Shown: positions 1,427 through 9,831 of the stretch, piece after piece
Layout of the letters: the number at the start of each line of letters is the position of its first letter
Numbering within the stretch: position 1 is the first letter of the stretch
Source: an uncultured Flavobacteriales bacterium
GTDB taxonomy: Bacteria; Bacteroidota; Bacteroidia; CAIKAF01
DNA: 43,781 bases
NCBI GenBank assembly: GCA_903837495.1
Contig: CAILUT010000005.1
Span: 1 to 43,781, forward strand
Direction of reading: 5' to 3'
Translations under genes and position numbers: made by a program
Notes under the pieces: model-generated
Told to the model about the DNA's origin: nothing
The model's input: only the letters and a program-made list of their open reading frames with translations
Database searches by the model: none

Positions 1427-1558
1427 GCACAACGTTTTCGGGCTTGGCGAAGGTGGCGATTTTCACCACAAATATTCATACGAAGCACACACTTCAAATT
1501 TACGAAAAACTGTCATACGAAGCACTAAACCGCCACTTTTGCCAAACCGCTGTTAGGC
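1427..1558 (-). other. attC-like recombination site (132 bp)
   Basis: Read on the minus strand, the element begins with R'' box GCCTAAC (1558-1552) and ends with R' box GTTGTGC (1433-1427). Between them is an imperfect inverted repeat: 1444-1458 against 1531-1545 pairs at 13 of 15 positions, and both mismatches can form G-T wobbles. This gives the long imperfect hairpin typical of integron attC sites, and the length fits the known range. A 13-bp direct repeat (TCATACGAAGCAC at 1476-1488 and 1513-1525) lies in the loop region. The R'' box and flank (GTTAGGCACAGTTGT read on plus) match the other end of the cassette in inverted orientation at 14 of 15 positions. Confidence 0.75.
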
Positions 1559-2928
1559 ACAGTTGTCCTTCTTTCTATGTAGTTAAGTTCGTTTGTCAGC
1601 ATTCGTTTTGCTTCGTTAATGCTGTCTTTTTTTAATGGTATTCCTAAAATTAAAACAGTATTTGTTACTTCATTTATTCCATTTCTGTAAATTATTTTTT
1701 TGGGAGGTTCAAGTTTGTCTGAGGGGTAACAAAGAAAACCGTATTTAAGATCCGTTTTACTAAACGAGGAATAGGCCATTATTTGATGTAAATCATGTCT
1801 GTGGTCTTCTTTTAGTTTTTCACTTTTGCTGTCTTTATTATATAGATTCGATTTATATTTAGCATCGATAAATACTAAAAAATCATTTTTTTGATAAATA
1901 GCATCCGGTTCAATGTGTTTTAATTCCCAAGGATAGTGATATGAAGTTTTTGAATGAAACTTGAAGTTTGAAAACAATTTGCCACCCATTTCCTTTGCTA
2001 CTTCTTTAAAAATGTATTGAACAAATTTTTCAAACACATCTGAAAAGTCAACACGCCAAGCAGTGCTGTCAACCAATTTATATTTCAATATTTTGTTAGC
2101 TTGTTCTTTGCAAATTTTTATTGAAGGATTATCAGATGATTTAATTAAAATAGAATTACATGATTTAGGCTTGTGCAAATAAAGCTTCTCTTCAATAAAA
2201 GACAACCTAGATCTTAATGCATTCTTTATTCTTTGTGGGGTATTTGAAGAAAGTAATTCGATTTTGCAAATATCAAATACATATCGGATCTCCGAGTATT
2301 CATGATGAAATTCGCTTAATATGTTTTTTCTTATTGGAAATTTTAAACGGTGCTCTACTTTATATTCGTAATTGATATATTTATTCCAATTTACTTGCCC
2401 TAATGGTTGACTTGATAATAATTCAACATTATCAAATTTCCTCCATGGTTTCATTAACAAAATTTCTAAAGATGTAATAAACTTAACTGCTTCTAGATAT
2501 AGTGGTGGTCTAAAGTTTTTTCCAGAGGCCAATGAAAGGCTATCAATTACTTCAGGGCTTATCGCTGTTCCAAGAAGATTAAGGATTTCAATATAATCTT
2601 GAAAACGATCGCTGCCAGTGAATCTTGGCATGACAACAAAGTCGCCTATCTGCTTTCCTGTATCTGGACTTCGTAATGGAATACTACCAATGAAACTTGA
2701 TGAACGAAAAGACAAAGAAGTATTTTGGTCTGTACCCTCAATTGAAGGCTGAACTCCAATAAATTTAAAGAGATCATTATTATAACTTATAAATTTTTGA
2801 AGGTATTGACCTATTACCCTAAGGTCAGCAGATTTAAACCATTTTTTTTTCAAATCAATCCCGTTTAACAGCTTTGATTTTTCTGTTAAGCAAAATATTT
2901 CATCAAATACTTCTAGTGATTTACTCAT
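1525..2928 (-). CDS. mcrC: McrC-like nuclease subunit of a McrBC-type restriction system
   Basis: This 467-aa protein is the likely DNA-cleaving partner of the adjacent McrB-like motor. The C-terminal half carries a PD-(D/E)xK nuclease signature: an acidic residue in VFEKFV (about E300), PD at 341-342 and FIDAKYK with D355 and K357. The N-terminal 280 residues are an uncharacterised McrC-type recognition or coupling region. Its ATG overlaps the mcrB stop as ATGA (2928-2925), so the two are one operon. The last dozen residues (TVPNSGLAKVAV) and the stop are encoded by the attC-like element, so the natural C-terminus is set by the recombination site. The known family role is GTP-dependent cleavage of modified DNA; the modification recognised here is unknown. 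Confidence 0.88.
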   Translation of the reverse strand: MSKSLEVFDEIFCLTEKSKLLNGIDLKKKWFKSADLRVIGQYLQKFISYNNDLFKFIGVQPSIEGTDQNTSLSFRSSSFIGSIPLRSPDTGKQIGDFVVMPRFTGSDRFQDYIEILNLLGTAISPEVIDSLSLASGKNFRPPLYLEAVKFITSLEILLMKPWRKFDNVELLSSQPLGQVNWNKYINYEYKVEHRLKFPIRKNILSEFHHEYSEIRYVFDICKIELLSSNTPQRIKNALRSRLSFIEEKLYLHKPKSCNSILIKSSDNPSIKICKEQANKILKYKLVDSTAWRVDFSDVFEKFVQYIFKEVAKEMGGKLFSNFKFHSKTSYHYPWELKHIEPDAIYQKNDFLVFIDAKYKSNLYNKDSKSEKLKEDHRHDLHQIMAYSSFSKTDLKYGFLCYPSDKLEPPKKIIYRNGINEVTNTVLILGIPLKKDSINEAKRMLTNELNYIERRTTVPNSGLAKVAV

Positions 2929-3926
2929 TCAAATAACGATTGATTAATTCTTGACATGAAATAATTATTGAATTCCTCCTTAGCACTACTTAAAAGCCCT
3001 TCTTGAATATATTCTTTAATTAGCGGAAAAATTTCATATTTAATTCTATTCGTCATTTCTTTAAAATTTAGTGCTATGAAATATCCCTGACCAGGTTGAA
3101 GCGAAAGTTCAGGGCTTGAAGCATGCCAATAAAAAATTTCGCTAACTTTTGTATAATCCTCTACAAAAAAGAAATTATCTGAGTTTTCAATTTCTAAAAC
3201 ATTGATATCAGTTAATTTTTTCTTTTTTCCAGAAATTGATTTTGGTTTTAAGTCATACCAGGCGAATCGCCTTCTTAATGCAAAATCAACAACAGCCAAG
3301 CTTCTATCAGCTGTGTTCATGGTTGCAATCACATATAAATTATCTGGTAATTTATCTATTTTTAAGTCGGAAGTTATTTCAATTTTGACCGAAGAAGCTT
3401 CCATTTTATGTTCAAATAAGTAGAATATTGGTCCTAATACATTGGCTAAATTCGCTCTATTAATTTCATCAATAATTAATACAACATTACCACTATTGGG
3501 TTTCTGCGCTTCCAATAAGGCCTCGGTAAATTTGCCAATAACTGGAATGTAGCTTATTGAATCTTTTTTAATATCAGGCCTGATACCATAAATAAAATCT
3601 GAATATGAGGTTTCAGCATGGAATTGAGTGAAAATAGAGACTGCATTTAATTTGTCTACTACTGCCTTTGCAGTTCTTGTTTTTCCAGTTCCTGGAGGGC
3701 CTTGAAGAACAACAAATCGTCTTTCTATCAAAAGCTTACTTACTTCATCTTCATCTATAGTATGGTCTTGCTTTAAAAATGGTTCAAGCGCTTCAGAAAT
3801 AGCTTTACGTTGTGGATCATTTGTTGCCCATTCTCTTAATTTTGCATATCCTGCAACAAACGCTGAGATAACTTTTTTACCAGTATCGGATTCTGGATCA
3901 TCTACAATTTGACATGCAGGAAGCAC
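2925..3926 (-). CDS. mcrB: McrB-like AAA+ GTPase, C-terminal part of a frameshifted gene
   Basis: This frame holds the motor domain: Walker A GPPGTGKT (residues 76-83 from the GTG at 3926), Walker B VLIIDE followed by INR, and the McrB signature MNTADRS with ALRRRF behind it. In the family this motor uses GTP and drives McrC. The frame is open back to 4028, and the residues encoded there (KTDFLDIETSLPRSF and onward) continue the sequence of the ORF ending at 4016. Adding one base in the short T run at 4028-4030 would join the two into one gene of roughly 490 codons. The GTG start at 3926 is therefore formal only. If the frameshift is real, the system is likely inactive. Confidence 0.85.
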   Translation of the reverse strand: MLPACQIVDDPESDTGKKVISAFVAGYAKLREWATNDPQRKAISEALEPFLKQDHTIDEDEVSKLLIERRFVVLQGPPGTGKTRTAKAVVDKLNAVSIFTQFHAETSYSDFIYGIRPDIKKDSISYIPVIGKFTEALLEAQKPNSGNVVLIIDEINRANLANVLGPIFYLFEHKMEASSVKIEITSDLKIDKLPDNLYVIATMNTADRSLAVVDFALRRRFAWYDLKPKSISGKKKKLTDINVLEIENSDNFFFVEDYTKVSEIFYWHASSPELSLQPGQGYFIALNFKEMTNRIKYEIFPLIKEYIQEGLLSSAKEEFNNYFMSRINQSLFE

Positions 3927-4521: not shown

Positions 4522-4835
4522 TCACAAATCGTCAAAGGGCGAACGGATTTGTTGCAGGTTTTTGTTGCTTACACAGGTGTACATCTCGGTGGTTTTGCTG
4601 CTGCTATGCCCCAACAATTCCTGAATGTATCTTTGGTCTGTTCCCGATTCCAATAGGCGGGTGGAATAGCTGTGCCCCAACCAATGCAGACTGGCCGGTT
4701 TTGGGTTGCCAACCTTTTGCAGCGTTTGCTTTAACACCCGTTGCAAACTGCGTTCGCTGTATTTTTCGACCCCTTGCCGCCATACCCATAGAATTGAAAT
4801 TTCTGCTCCAGCAACAAGGCCGTTCTTGTCTGAAT
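4522..4835 (-). pseudogene. decayed tyrosine recombinase (integron-type integrase) C-terminal remnant
   Basis: The open part (from about 4773 to 4522) reads VEKYSERSLQRVLKQTL and continues to a clear tyrosine-recombinase C-terminus: LHWLGHSYSTRLLESGTD, RYIQELLGHSSSKTTEMY, and the family-typical tail IRSPFDDL. The catalytic Tyr and the second His box (LLGHSS) are present. The usual HxLRH arginine is replaced by Gly (HWLGH), and the HVS after the Tyr is CVS. Upstream of about 4773 the homology (RTALLLEQKF) continues in another frame, with a stretch apparently missing; the N-terminal three quarters of the gene are absent. It is therefore non-functional. It lies 3' end first towards the cassettes and is co-directional with them, as described for reversed integrons such as that of Treponema denticola. 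Confidence 0.75.
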
Positions 4836-5487: not shown

Positions 5488-7044
5488 TTACAGCTCCACC
5501 TCAATCCAATCCTGCTGAGGCAGTGCGCAGAGCAAAGACGCATCCAATGGAATGCCCGCATGGCTGCTTAACCAGTTTTCAAACGGAACCACTTCGTGGC
5601 CAAAAGGATCCCAGCGGTATCCAAGCCGCGAATCTTGAAGCATTTCAAGGGCATCTGGATTTTTCGCCCAGAAAGTTTTAAACTGAAACGATTCCATGCT
5701 CAGCGCGTGCAAGAGCCGAACCAAGGTAAACAACCGCTGACTCGGCTTTTCTTTTTCGCCCTGCCGCTGAATGCGGCGCTGTAAATTTGAAATCAAGCCT
5801 TCGGCCACATCAAATTGGCCCATATCGATGCGCAGCTGCAACTCAAAAACCTCTATGCCTAAAGACCAATCTTGCAGTTTTTGGCGGCGCAGCAGAGAAA
5901 GGGATTTCAATCCGGACTTTGCTTTGTGGGCATGGCCCATCATGAAATCCAAATACGCCAACAGGTATTGAACATGCTCCCGTTCGCTGTTTTGAAGCTG
6001 AGCTTGGTTCAACAGTTCCTGAAGAAAATGGGTTGCCTCAGCGTAATGTCCAATTTGAATGTAGGCAATGGCCTGGGCTGTAGCCACTTTTCGTCCGCTG
6101 TAGGAAGTCAAGGACGACAAAGACCGGGCCTCGTCTATGTGCTGTTTGGCTTGCTGAAATTGACGCAAGTGCATGGCGGCGGTCGTGGACTGCAAAGCGG
6201 CATTCACTCGGCGTATAGGACTACTAATGCCGGGGGTGGCCGACAGGAGGGTGCGCAGGGCTTGGGCTTCGGCAGCCTGATTCTCAAACGAACCTACCCC
6301 TTCCCAATACAGAATTTTCAACTGCGAAATCAGGTATTCAATGCCCCTTGCCGAGCGGCCCTGCAATTCAGAGCTCAAGCGTTTAATTTCGGCCGCCAAT
6401 TGCCGGTACGGCTGCTCTCCGCGGTATGGATTTTCTTTTTGAAACCCATATTTATAAAAAAGCAGTTCAGCCTGCCGCTCCAAACATGCCAGCCGACTGT
6501 AGTTTTCGGCTTGTTGCAGCATGGCCTCGCCTTTCTCCGAACTCAGCTGAGTGCATAGATGAATGTACAAAATGCGGCAGGCCGAACCCGCCAAATCATA
6601 CAGCTCATATTTCTGGCTGTCGCGCAAAACCCGCTGAAGCAATTCGTCGGATTCGGTCCTTAGGCCTTTGATTGAAAGGATCTCGGCAGAAATCAATGTC
6701 TTTTTAGCCCGCTGCCGGCTTAACCAAGTCGGGGCGTATGCCGTTCCTCTGCTTAAATTCACCTCCAACTGAAGCGATTCGAACACCTTTTCCTTAAGCC
6801 TTGCAACCAATTTCGAGAAGGTGCCTTCGTCCATATCTGGAAAAAGGTGGTTTTTCACCCCCTCATCGGAAAGATTTTTCAGCTTCGTATTGTCCGAAAT
6901 ATAGGAAAACAGTTTTAAGGTTTTAGGCTCGTATTCCCCGTATTTTCGGTTGAATCCGGCTATAAAAGCCGAAGTTGCCTCGATTTCGGCTGGGCCCATT
7001 GCCGCGGCGATTTGCCTGAGGCTTTCGGTGGTGTTTTTTCTCAT
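5488..7044 (-). CDS. alpha-helical TPR-like protein, function unknown
   Basis: The 519-aa product from ATG 7044 (MRKNTTESLRQIAAAMG) is almost entirely amphipathic helices, with TPR-like pairs in the C-terminal 300 residues (for example QAIAYIQIGHYAEATHFLQELL). The first hundred residues, including HLFPDMDEGTFSKLVARLKEKV, may form a separate winged-helix-like or helical domain. They resemble a widespread Bacteroidota family I know only as uncharacterised. A longer frame to 7239 is open, but its extra residues are low-complexity and translate what looks like leader DNA, so I prefer 7044. There is no signal peptide, so it is cytoplasmic. It is divergent from the tandem 53-aa peptide genes and could sense or regulate them; this is inference only. 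Confidence 0.85.
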   Translation of the reverse strand: MRKNTTESLRQIAAAMGPAEIEATSAFIAGFNRKYGEYEPKTLKLFSYISDNTKLKNLSDEGVKNHLFPDMDEGTFSKLVARLKEKVFESLQLEVNLSRGTAYAPTWLSRQRAKKTLISAEILSIKGLRTESDELLQRVLRDSQKYELYDLAGSACRILYIHLCTQLSSEKGEAMLQQAENYSRLACLERQAELLFYKYGFQKENPYRGEQPYRQLAAEIKRLSSELQGRSARGIEYLISQLKILYWEGVGSFENQAAEAQALRTLLSATPGISSPIRRVNAALQSTTAAMHLRQFQQAKQHIDEARSLSSLTSYSGRKVATAQAIAYIQIGHYAEATHFLQELLNQAQLQNSEREHVQYLLAYLDFMMGHAHKAKSGLKSLSLLRRQKLQDWSLGIEVFELQLRIDMGQFDVAEGLISNLQRRIQRQGEKEKPSQRLFTLVRLLHALSMESFQFKTFWAKNPDALEMLQDSRLGYRWDPFGHEVVPFENWLSSHAGIPLDASLLCALPQQDWIEVEL

Positions 7045-7319
7045 TTTACAACGTTTCTGGAACAAACCTACTTCAAATATCCGTAATGTCCAAATTTTTA
7101 ACTTTTGGTGTTTTTTTAAGACACGAAAGACCTCAAATTTGTTCCAGAAATAGTTCAAAACTATTTCGCCGCGTTCTTTCAAAACCTTGTTTACAATGGG
7201 GAATATACGAACTAAATCCGACATACCGCCGGCATACACGTTCTAAACATCCTTTAATTTAGACAACACAGGCTTCAACTTAAAATGTTTTTTACACACG
7301 CTTTCTAATTCCTTTCATT

Positions 7320-7481
7320 ATGAGTCCGCTAATCCTCCTTGTATCTATGCTGTTTAATTCTGGCACCTCGTTCGACATCATCGTTGATGAGATCGCCCAC
7401 CGCAGCGGAAAAGACATCATTGTCGATGAAATCGCACACTACGCCGGTTCCGACATCATTGTGGACGAAATCGCTCATTAA
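7320..7481 (+). CDS. 53-aa peptide with three DIIVDEIAH repeats, copy 1
   Basis: ATG 7320 to TAA 7481 encodes a short protein with a hydrophobic start (PLILLVSMLF) followed by three exact copies of the nonapeptide DIIVDEIAH, separated by RSGK and YAGS. The three repeats differ at several third codon positions but not in amino acids. The neighbouring copy differs from codon 5 on only by three synonymous changes, a pattern that argues strongly for translation and selection on the peptide. No known family comes to mind. It could be a multi-copy signal or bioactive peptide precursor, a RiPP-like precursor, or a self-assembling peptide. The hydrophobic start lacks the basic residues of a normal signal peptide. 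Confidence 0.75.
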   Translation: MSPLILLVSMLFNSGTSFDIIVDEIAHRSGKDIIVDEIAHYAGSDIIVDEIAH

Positions 7482-7676
7482 TTCCTTTCAACAACCCCTT
7501 AACACAAAATACCATGTCAACCTTAATCCTCCTTGTATCTATGCTGTTTAATTCTGGCACTTCGTTCGACATCATCGTTGATGAGATTGCCCACCGCAGC
7601 GGAAAAGACATCATTGTCGATGAAATCGCCCACTACGCCGGTTCCGACATCATTGTGGACGAAATCGCTCATTAAT
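7326..7676 (+). repeat. tandem duplication (194-bp period) of the small peptide gene
   Basis: About 155 bp are repeated at 7326-7482 and 7520-7676, near-identical from codon 5 of each peptide gene to just past its stop. The two first-codon regions and the leaders between copies differ, so each copy has its own 5' sequence. The period equals the distance between the two ATGs (194 bp). Confidence 0.9.
7514..7675 (+). CDS. 53-aa peptide with three DIIVDEIAH repeats, copy 2
   Basis: This paralogue of the preceding gene starts at ATG 7514 and differs in protein only at residue 3 (Thr for Pro). The nucleotide differences after codon 4 are ACC/ACT, ATC/ATT and GCA/GCC, all silent. The 32-nt gap between the genes has no terminator, so both are probably on one transcript, perhaps continuing to the 81-aa ORF at 7796. 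A leader of AT-rich sequence without a Shine-Dalgarno is normal for Bacteroidota. The function is unknown. Confidence 0.75.
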   Translation: MSTLILLVSMLFNSGTSFDIIVDEIAHRSGKDIIVDEIAHYAGSDIIVDEIAH

Positions 7677-7708
7677 CAAAATATATAAACGTTGGGAATA
7701 CAAAAAAT

Positions 7709-7761
7709 GGCAGGCCCGCTTAATTGGGGAAACGTTGGGATGAGTAGAACGCGGGCCTGCC
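7709..7761. repeat. inverted repeat with 11-bp arms between small genes
   Basis: GGCAGGCCCGC (7709-7719) pairs exactly with GCGGGCCTGCC (7751-7761) around a 31-nt loop. AACGTTGGGA occurs both just before the stem (7689-7698) and inside the loop. The loop end GAGTAGAACGC resembles the GGTAGAACGC found in the intergenic repeat family, so this may be a short derivative of that family. No T-run follows, so it is not a typical terminator. Confidence 0.6.
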
Positions 7762-7795: not shown

Positions 7796-8041
7796 ATGAA
7801 AGGTATTCCATTTACAACACGAATAAATTTTGAGTTAGGTGCAGAGTTCCGTGATTTGGCAGAAGCCAACGACAGCGTTGATGAGGTGTTAAGCGAGGTA
7901 GATCGGGTTATTGAATCTAGGTATTTTAATACCAACAAGGCAATCTTAGGTCCAACTGAAATGCTTCGCTGGTTGTGGTGGGAAAAAACCCGCCGCAGCT
8001 TCAAATTCCTAGCCAACGAAATGGCTGTCGCACCTTTTTAA
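7796..8041 (+). CDS. hypothetical 81-aa protein
   Basis: This small soluble protein starts MKGIPFTTRINFELGAEF, has an acidic helical middle (NDSVDEVLSEVDRVIESRYF) and a Trp-rich, basic C-terminal region (MLRWLWWEKTRRSFKFL). Codon use looks natural, and a strong terminator follows 50 nt downstream. The opposite-strand frame over the same DNA looks like a shadow. It lies in the same direction as the two repeat-peptide genes and could be the last gene of their transcript. I do not recognise the family. Confidence 0.55.
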   Translation: MKGIPFTTRINFELGAEFRDLAEANDSVDEVLSEVDRVIESRYFNTNKAILGPTEMLRWLWWEKTRRSFKFLANEMAVAPF

Positions 8042-8092: not shown

Positions 8093-8141
8093 TAAAAAAA
8101 ACAAACCTCTCCATTTTTCCACGGAGAGGTTTGTTTTTTTT
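8093..8141 (+). terminator. strong rho-independent terminator (bidirectional)
   Basis: ACAAACCTCTCC (8101-8112) pairs with GGAGAGGTTTGT (8123-8134) over a 10-nt loop, with A and T runs on both sides. It ends the peptide/81-aa transcript on plus and could also serve the minus strand. Confidence 0.9.
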
Positions 8142-8356: not shown

Positions 8357-9250
8357 CTAATTCGGGACGACCAACCGAAAGCCAATGAAGTCGCTGCGGT
8401 AAGAAGGTATGCCGCTGCCGCGGTACGCAGAACGGCAATACCTGCCGTAGCCGAACCAACTGCCCCCACGCAAAACCCGATTCGACCCCGATGCAGGGCC
8501 CGAAGGGTTCGTTTGGCTGCCTCCCGAATAAGGTCCATACCAATCGCTGCACCATTCCATACCATTCCCATGCATATCGCATAAGCCCCAAGCGTTGGGA
8601 TTGTAAGACCCCACAGGCATGGTTTGACCCAGATAGTTTCCTATTGGGCAGGAGAAATAGGGGTAATTGCCGTAGTAGTTTGCTTGGTTGTTGCTTAAGC
8701 AGCTTCCCGAATAAAAAGGTGTGGTTGTTCCTGCCCGGCAAGCGTATTCCCATTCGGCTTCGGTTGGCAGCCTACAACCTGGACCAACCCATAGGGCAAA
8801 AGCCATGGCCTCGTTCCAATTTACGTTAATTGCAGGCCTGTTTACCCTGCTCCAACCTTCATCATCGGGCTTTTGCCGGCCCGTTGCATCGCAAAAAACA
8901 TCGCATTGGGCAAAGGGTGCCTCATACTTGCTCATTTTAAACCCGCTTATGGAAACGTCATGTTGGGGGCCTTCATTGCCATCTCTTTCAACTTCATTGT
9001 TGGGACTGCCCATGCTGAAAGTGCCAGAAGGAATTTGCTCCCATTCTATAGTTGCACCGGCATTCAAAATCCCAATCTCAAAAGAAACCGAATCTGCAAC
9101 CCCAATTGCATCGGATACAACCACCGTGTACTGCCCCGGCAACAGATTTATTCTGCTGGAGTCTGAACCGCCACCCTTAAACCAAACGTAGATATACGGA
9201 GGAGCTCCTCCCTTTGCTTTTAAGTGCGCATGACCATTTGAAAACCCCAA
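8357..9250 (-). CDS. SUMF1/FGE-like domain protein, apparently 5'-truncated
   Basis: The last 225 residues form a formylglycine-generating-enzyme (SUMF1) fold: IPSGTFSMGSP, the RPAINVNWNEAMAF block, RLPTEAEWEYACRAG, WGLCDMHGNGMEWC and NRVLRGGSW ending in FRLV. Residues 5-60 are the second half of an SprB-like/PKD-type repeat (GGAPPYIYVW, LPGQYTVVVSDAIG). There is no credible start: the first codon is TTG, an in-frame TGA sits at 9262-9260, and no signal peptide is present although the domain type is usually exported. Only one of the two active-site cysteines of true FGE is seen (C272, no partner five residues before), so sulfatase activation is unlikely. I read it as the 3' remnant of a larger surface protein. 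Confidence 0.75.
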   Translation of the reverse strand: MGFSNGHAHLKAKGGAPPYIYVWFKGGGSDSSRINLLPGQYTVVVSDAIGVADSVSFEIGILNAGATIEWEQIPSGTFSMGSPNNEVERDGNEGPQHDVSISGFKMSKYEAPFAQCDVFCDATGRQKPDDEGWSRVNRPAINVNWNEAMAFALWVGPGCRLPTEAEWEYACRAGTTTPFYSGSCLSNNQANYYGNYPYFSCPIGNYLGQTMPVGSYNPNAWGLCDMHGNGMEWCSDWYGPYSGGSQTNPSGPASGSNRVLRGGSWFGYGRYCRSAYRGSGIPSYRSDFIGFRLVVPN

Positions 9251-9454: not shown

Positions 9455-9465
9455 AAAAAAAAATG

Positions 9466-9831
9466 TGGAGCTGGCGGGAGTCGAACCCGCGTCCAAACAA
9501 GGCATTCAAAAGCTTTCTCCATGCGCAGACACCGAAGTATTGTCGGGAAGAGACTACGGTCGGTGACCCCCAAAGCCTTTCCTTAGTTCCTTATCTTAGG
9601 CCGGTGGCGGAACCAAACCGGCAGCATCCCGATGGATTGATGTCCCAATCCGGAGAAATCGGGAGGCCCTCCGGCGGAACAGCTTACTGCTAATCGCTTC
9701 GATTAGGCAGCTAGAGCGTAGTTGTTGTTGTCGGCACTTAACGTGTCGAAGCTTTAGATTAACGAGGTAAGGCAGCAACCCTCGGCACGCTTACAATTGA
9801 GCAACTCTCGCTGTCAATACCGGTCAGCCCC
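9466..9831 (-). ncRNA. ssrA: transfer-messenger RNA (tmRNA)
   Basis: The minus strand starts GGGGCTGACCGGTATTGACAG and ends with a T-arm (GGTTCGACTCCCGCC) and AGCTCC, which pairs with GGGGCT as the acceptor stem. CCA is not encoded. The internal reading frame at 9735-9703 encodes the proteolysis tag ADNNNYALAA followed by TAA. The 366-nt length fits one-piece bacterial tmRNA. With SmpB it rescues stalled ribosomes and tags the nascent chain for proteolysis. Confidence 0.97.

Follow-up and report, generated by a model that had tools for sequence, protein, structure and literature searches.

A candidate peptide-receptor signalling cassette in Bacteroidota: tandem repeat-bearing small genes divergent from a TPR protein gene

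Introduction

We have analyzed a 43,781-nucleotide stretch of DNA (the window) from an uncultured Flavobacteriales bacterium, in which two adjoining genes each encode a 53-aa peptide with three perfect copies of the nonapeptide DIIVDEIAH. The question raised by this locus is what so small and repetitive a protein might do. A preliminary description, made from the sequence alone, had treated positions 7320-7675 as the feature and offered two kinds of answer, a precursor of several mature copies (a signal peptide, modified peptide or inhibitor) or a self-assembling peptide. The coordinates stand, but the two genes proved to be just part of a larger conserved cassette, whose main clue, a divergently transcribed gene for a TPR-repeat protein, had been missed.

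Peptide genes of the window

The two propeptide-like genes lie on the plus strand at 7320-7481 and 7514-7675, exactly where they had been placed; the second is a tandem copy encoding the same peptide, and the assignment of both draws on their ORFs, purifying selection and orthologues. Both products read MS[P/T]LILLVSMLFNSGTSF-DIIVDEIAH-RSGK-DIIVDEIAH-YAGS-DIIVDEIAH, with the perfect units set behind a hydrophobic start and separated by the spacers RSGK and YAGS. Pairs of units inside one gene differ at 4-7 silent positions (~5.3 synonymous sites) with zero replacements, in agreement with the synonymous codon usage first described. This strong silent-site divergence rules out recent DNA duplication within a gene as the source of the perfect repeats. 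From codon 5 onward the two genes differ from each other at only three sites, all silent, again as first described, and their sequences suggest a pair that either arose by recent duplication or has been homogenised. No further copies occur in the genome of origin (2.5 Mb, 67 contigs). Comparison of the peptide genes of species G000 and G005 gave pS of 0.52-0.57 and pN of ~0.08. Together with the silent-only differences between units, these values support the earlier claim of selection at the protein level, and a pattern of translated peptides under purifying selection is supported at the sequence level. Pfam and NCBIfam searches with the peptides gave zero matches, and no homologue of either the peptide or the TPR protein was found among viral contigs.

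Conservation within the genus

The locus is present in all five of the other genomes sampled from the genus, as arrays of at least two to six genes. A complete lack of homologues would have counted against the preliminary description; homologues were found in the genus, and the reading frame is intact in every one of them (G000, G005, G009 and G007). The peptide gene is present in two copies in G000, three in G005, at least five in G009 and at least two in G007, the array being split across two contig ends in G009 and lying at a contig end in G007. A peptide search gave no match in G006 and G008, but the 81-aa gene that follows the array led to the syntenic locus in both. At this place there are six (G006) and three (G008) genes for peptides of 55 aa, with another body and one IIVDELQH at the extreme C-terminus. 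Searched for as a DNA pattern, the C-terminal motif turned up in 5 of the 295 Bacteroidia genomes, every one of this genus and at this locus only, and zero times in a reversed control, which excludes a chance origin. The motif is thus kept across the genus while the peptide body changes. Since it is single and C-terminal in G006 and G008, the unit conserved across the genus, as read from these sequences, is the C-terminal motif behind a hydrophobic start, of which the threefold repeat is the form taken in one lineage.

Other elements around the array

The putative divergent control region (7045-7319) contains a 13-bp inverted repeat, TTTCTGGAACAAA (7054-7066) and TTTGTTCCAGAAA (7138-7150). A repeat of equal length arose in 1 of 100 shuffles, and relatives keep it only in part. 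A common operator was sought across the family, and exact repeats exceeded chance in just a few intergenic regions. Between the array and the 81-aa gene there is a predicted RNA hairpin (7709-7761, plus strand) with an 11-bp stem and a conserved loop, TTGGGGAAACGTTGGGATGAG. Three of its stem pairs are altered on both sides, a result obtained from four distinct sequences only, and 18 of 500 shuffles scored as high. Five members of the genus each have one such hairpin, and the rest of the 295 genomes have none; this confinement rules it out as part of a general system. An ORF crosses it in some genomes, and its reading as coding sequence was rejected on account of the compensatory stem changes and a lost start codon. 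The Rfam search returned chance-level matches only, with no family assigned. The sequence AAACGTTGGGA occurs twice in 7686-7746, 5' of the hairpin and in its loop, and in G006 and G008 both copies appear to share one T to A change.

The 81-aa ORF (7796-8041, plus strand) has syntenic orthologues of 37-70% identity in other members of the genus and no Pfam match; it is a possible output gene. It is followed by a terminator-like hairpin with a T run (8099-8140, plus strand), read from the sequence and similar in relatives. Further downstream in the window are genes on the minus strand for a protein with a sulfatase-modifying-factor (FGE) domain (8357-9250; Pfam 2.4e-48) and for tmRNA (9465-9831; tag ADNNNYALAA). 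The regions 1525-3926 and 4522-4746 on the minus strand, upstream of the TPR gene, hold what we take to be McrBC-like restriction genes and a short tyrosine-recombinase fragment.

The TPR protein and its predicted structure

The 518-aa TPR protein is encoded on the minus strand at 5488-7044 (5491-7044 without the stop codon), divergently from the peptide array and with 275 nt between start codons. We propose it as a receptor on the grounds of family distribution, linkage to peptide ORFs, a structural model and its matches. The gene is single-copy in its own genome. A search with the protein recovered family members from 56 of the 295 Bacteroidia genomes, spread over 30 of 155 genera and numbering as many as five in one genome; a profile search extends the family to other classes of Bacteroidota. 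Of the 76 distinct family rows recovered, nearly all are full length, and members mostly measure 485-545 aa. Pfam TPR matches are many and weak across the family, the window protein's own scores being below the cut-offs; the TPR partner also lacks a signal sequence. No homologue was found in plasmid and phage records, and at that sensitivity there is thus no sign of an arbitrium-like mobile copy. NCBIfam NF058569, the BT2802 family ribose utilization protein, weakly matches three family members over its N-terminal ~140 positions, to which the likeness is limited (best 3.4e-8, far under the 550-bit cut-off), and it does not match the window protein. RapJ (4gyo) was matched in sequence at 1.5e-4, standing among generic TPR proteins.

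An AlphaFold2 model of moderate confidence (mean pLDDT 67), built from four orthologues, predicts five N-terminal helices (domain ~1-99) followed by a TPR superhelix (~109-470). The structure that VIA-align ranked first for this model is the complex of NprR and the peptide NprX (4gpk; Z 17.5, rmsd 5.3 A, 289 residues aligned over model positions 95-505). Apo NprR, RapJ with its peptide, a phage Rap and RapI follow at Z ~16-17, as do chains of LGN, an unrelated TPR protein that matches about as well as NprR. Foldseek E-values were weak. As a property of a model, the NprR-NprX match fits the receptor proposal and is no proof of it. The N-terminal domain alone (five helices, pLDDT 74) gave no good structural match, and no helix-turn-helix appeared for it among the Foldseek or VIA-align rows, although one may still exist.

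Association of small ORFs with TPR genes across Bacteroidota

Many distant relatives of the TPR protein (20-25% identity) also have small ORFs upstream. The encoded peptides (29-77 aa) have the layout of the window peptides but no evident sequence similarity to them: a hydrophobic start, a variable linker and a short conserved C-terminus, often in a tandem array. When a qualifying small ORF was required to be divergent and within 900 nt, 44 of 96 TPR family genes had one adjoining, compared with 9 of 157 control genes, which were the remaining genes at those loci (Fisher p = 4e-14, which overstates independence because the TPR rows are related to each other). At least two such ORFs adjoin 17 of the 96 and none of the 157. 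An earlier, looser rule had given 42 of 75, compared with 10 on the same strand and 6 in reversed sequence. Recurrence in many families is a stronger argument for linkage than the p-value. At about half of the family members no peptide was detected.

Examples of arrays include four near-identical tandem copies of MISAISTLLIAASLLIGSGSTENNSSSSSSQPTSGQIITNDEVGM and four copies of the 29-aa MIATISTILVAASILVGTSAIITTDQTGM. Elsewhere three ORFs end in IGTEQSGWGLK, one of them (locus L049) carrying the motif twice within a single gene. Other C-termini beside TPR genes are IITNDEVGM, IITTDQTGM, IIGLEETDF, IIWEAEGDDF and IIWETNEK, and in another class of the phylum the peptides end in IDRRED, IDRTED or IDRLED. 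Four loci of that class (L122, L124, L130 and L132) combine a conserved [IF]DR.ED end with starts of the form M.L..AIL..FG. Identity over the last eight residues is 1.00 in the single-motif type of family g1, 0.59 in g15 and 0.60 in f85, while the linkers show 0.42, 0.15 and 0.06, respectively; in family f33 the C-terminus shows no conservation. Peptide types cluster on the receptor tree, with 14 changes against a shuffled mean of 37.7 and none of 200 shuffles as low, a clustering that is partly plain shared descent. In each of the families f4, f10 and f46, two peptide types accompany two retained receptor paralogues.

A second class of partner, also divergent to the TPR gene, was seen at seven loci (L078, L080, L105, L091, L106, L085 and L068). 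These proteins of 90-105 aa have an ordinary signal peptide and often cysteines, e.g. CGV..QI..Y...IPGTCN...VYVVDG.IVGH.D, and they adjoin some of the members of one deep TPR clade. The two that were tested had no Pfam or NCBIfam match.

Proposed mechanism and alternative explanations

The reading that we prefer, towards which the evidence moderately tips, is that the tandem ORFs and the TPR protein form a peptide-receptor signalling cassette working like the RRNPP systems. Its export, cleavage, uptake, binding and output are steps that we infer. The ORFs would encode propeptides whose hydrophobic start of 10-16 residues targets the precursor to the inner membrane or carries it across. The ligand would be the short acidic C-terminal motif, here DIIVDEIAH, and three units in each of two precursors could yield up to six ligands per transcript. 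Proteolysis would free the ligand, and a peptide transporter would return it to the cytoplasm; uptake is feasible, since the genome encodes two SBP_bac_5 loci and POT-type transporters. The ligand would then occupy the groove of the TPR protein and switch the activity of that protein. What is regulated as output is probably the intergenic region that the divergent genes share and, in this genus, also the 81-aa gene that follows the array.

Several observations count for this cassette. The peptide genes are conserved, in frame and under selection, and the C-terminal motif is kept while the body changes. Small ORFs, single and in tandem, are linked to the TPR genes across the phylum, with the same layout for unrelated peptides and in another class too. 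Peptide type follows receptor clade, and three families pair two receptors with two peptide types. NprR-NprX is the best VIA-align match, with the Rap proteins close, and tandem pheromones are known (PMC11343458). On the other side, hydrophobic starts nearly all lack basic residues, unlike ordinary Sec signals, which makes export the weakest step. The comparable match of LGN, the moderate model confidence and the lack of a DNA-binding fold among the matches also count against the cassette, as do the many family members with no peptide detected, the unconserved C-terminus of f33 and the part of shared descent in the clustering. As for the peptide itself, the comparative evidence favours the earlier idea of a multi-copy precursor, because relatives carry the motif once at the C-terminus, L049, of another family, carries its own C-terminal motif twice and the TPR gene is linked phylum-wide; no support was found for the self-assembling, modified-peptide or inhibitor readings.

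The main rival, which we consider rather unlikely, would keep the small proteins in the inner membrane by their hydrophobic start, as tethers whose acidic C-terminal tail draws in the TPR protein from the cytosol or inhibits it, with neither export nor communication, much as EEVD tails bind TPR co-chaperones. Starts without basic residues, a conserved motif at the extreme C-terminus and a TPR partner without a signal sequence would all suit a tether. However, the window peptides have a hydrophobic stretch of ~9-12 residues, which is short for an anchor, internal motif copies, as in the window genus and L049, are hard to square with binding by a free C-terminal tail, and an acidic tail favours the outer face of the membrane. 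Tandem small peptides with hydrophobic starts, near a conserved RNA hairpin in this genus, also recall type I toxins controlled by a neighbouring gene or RNA. That explanation is improbable: conservation extends into the hydrophilic C-terminus, the partner that stays constant throughout the phylum is a TPR protein, and the hairpin, confined to a single genus, does not lie antisense to the ORFs. Hardly more credit, if anything slightly less, is due to precursors of a modified peptide or bacteriocin, which short precursors with a leader-like start, a repeated core and the FGE-domain gene downstream might suggest. Searches of curated RiPP and bacteriocin precursor families gave no match above cut-off, the ORF list of the G005 locus has no FGE-domain gene at the corresponding place, and no modification enzyme was noticed recurring beside distant loci.

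The widest form of the signalling reading would be phylum-wide, genetically encoded peptide pheromones of Bacteroidota with cytoplasmic TPR receptors, i.e. quorum sensing of the RRNPP kind in Gram-negatives. The pairs would be many and orthogonal, and repeats of the ligand within the gene and of the gene within the genome would raise ligand dosage. We regard this generalization as evenly poised between right and wrong.

Comparison with known systems

Bacillota and their mobile elements are where RRNPP-type peptide communication has been sought and described (PMC10075063). Searches of open-access full texts turned up no account of a comparable system in Bacteroidota, which is no proof that none exists. 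The cassette thus has the appearance of a Gram-negative signalling system, of peptide and receptor, that is new to the literature searched. Its recurrence in many Bacteroidota genera would give the phylum a candidate peptide language. The question lends itself to direct tests, since from every locus a particular short ligand (DIIVDEIAH, IIVDELQH, IITTDQTGM, IIGLEETDF, IDRTED, etc.) and a particular receptor can be predicted.

The nearest known logic is that of the RRNPP/RRNPPA systems of Bacillota (Rap-Phr, NprR-NprX, PlcR-PapR and AimR-AimP). As in those systems, a small propeptide gene directly adjoins a TPR-repeat protein gene (44 of 96 across the family), the C-terminal motif is ligand-like, several paralogous pairs can occur per genome, and the propeptides fall within the 10-100 aa criterion (53 aa here). 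The receptor likewise has TPRs, and its predicted superhelix is best matched by NprR with NprX. The differences are a Bacteroidota host, a receptor of ~518 aa whose N-terminal domain has no detected HTH match, acidic candidate ligands, leaders without basic residues and tandem arrays of whole genes; the cassette is known here from sequence and a model. The RRNPP survey used a default receptor length of 250-500 aa (PMC10075063), which the window protein exceeds at 518 aa. Export of RRNPP propeptides runs through Sec or PptAB, and the receptors have an HTH or a Rap-type helical bundle as N-terminal output domain; the candidate cassette shows a hydrophobic start that lacks basic residues and a five-helix domain with no clear match. 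We use RRNPP-like to describe how the cassette may work and do not class it as an RRNPP member, since it differs in receptor length and in phylum and no output domain was recognised. In phage Rap-Phr systems several mature pheromones can lie within one propeptide (PMC11343458). Like the Phr propeptides of the Bacillus phages phi3T and phi105, to which no sequence relation was found, the window peptides would offer more than one pheromone copy per propeptide beside a TPR receptor, here instead as three perfect copies per gene in genes that are themselves repeated.
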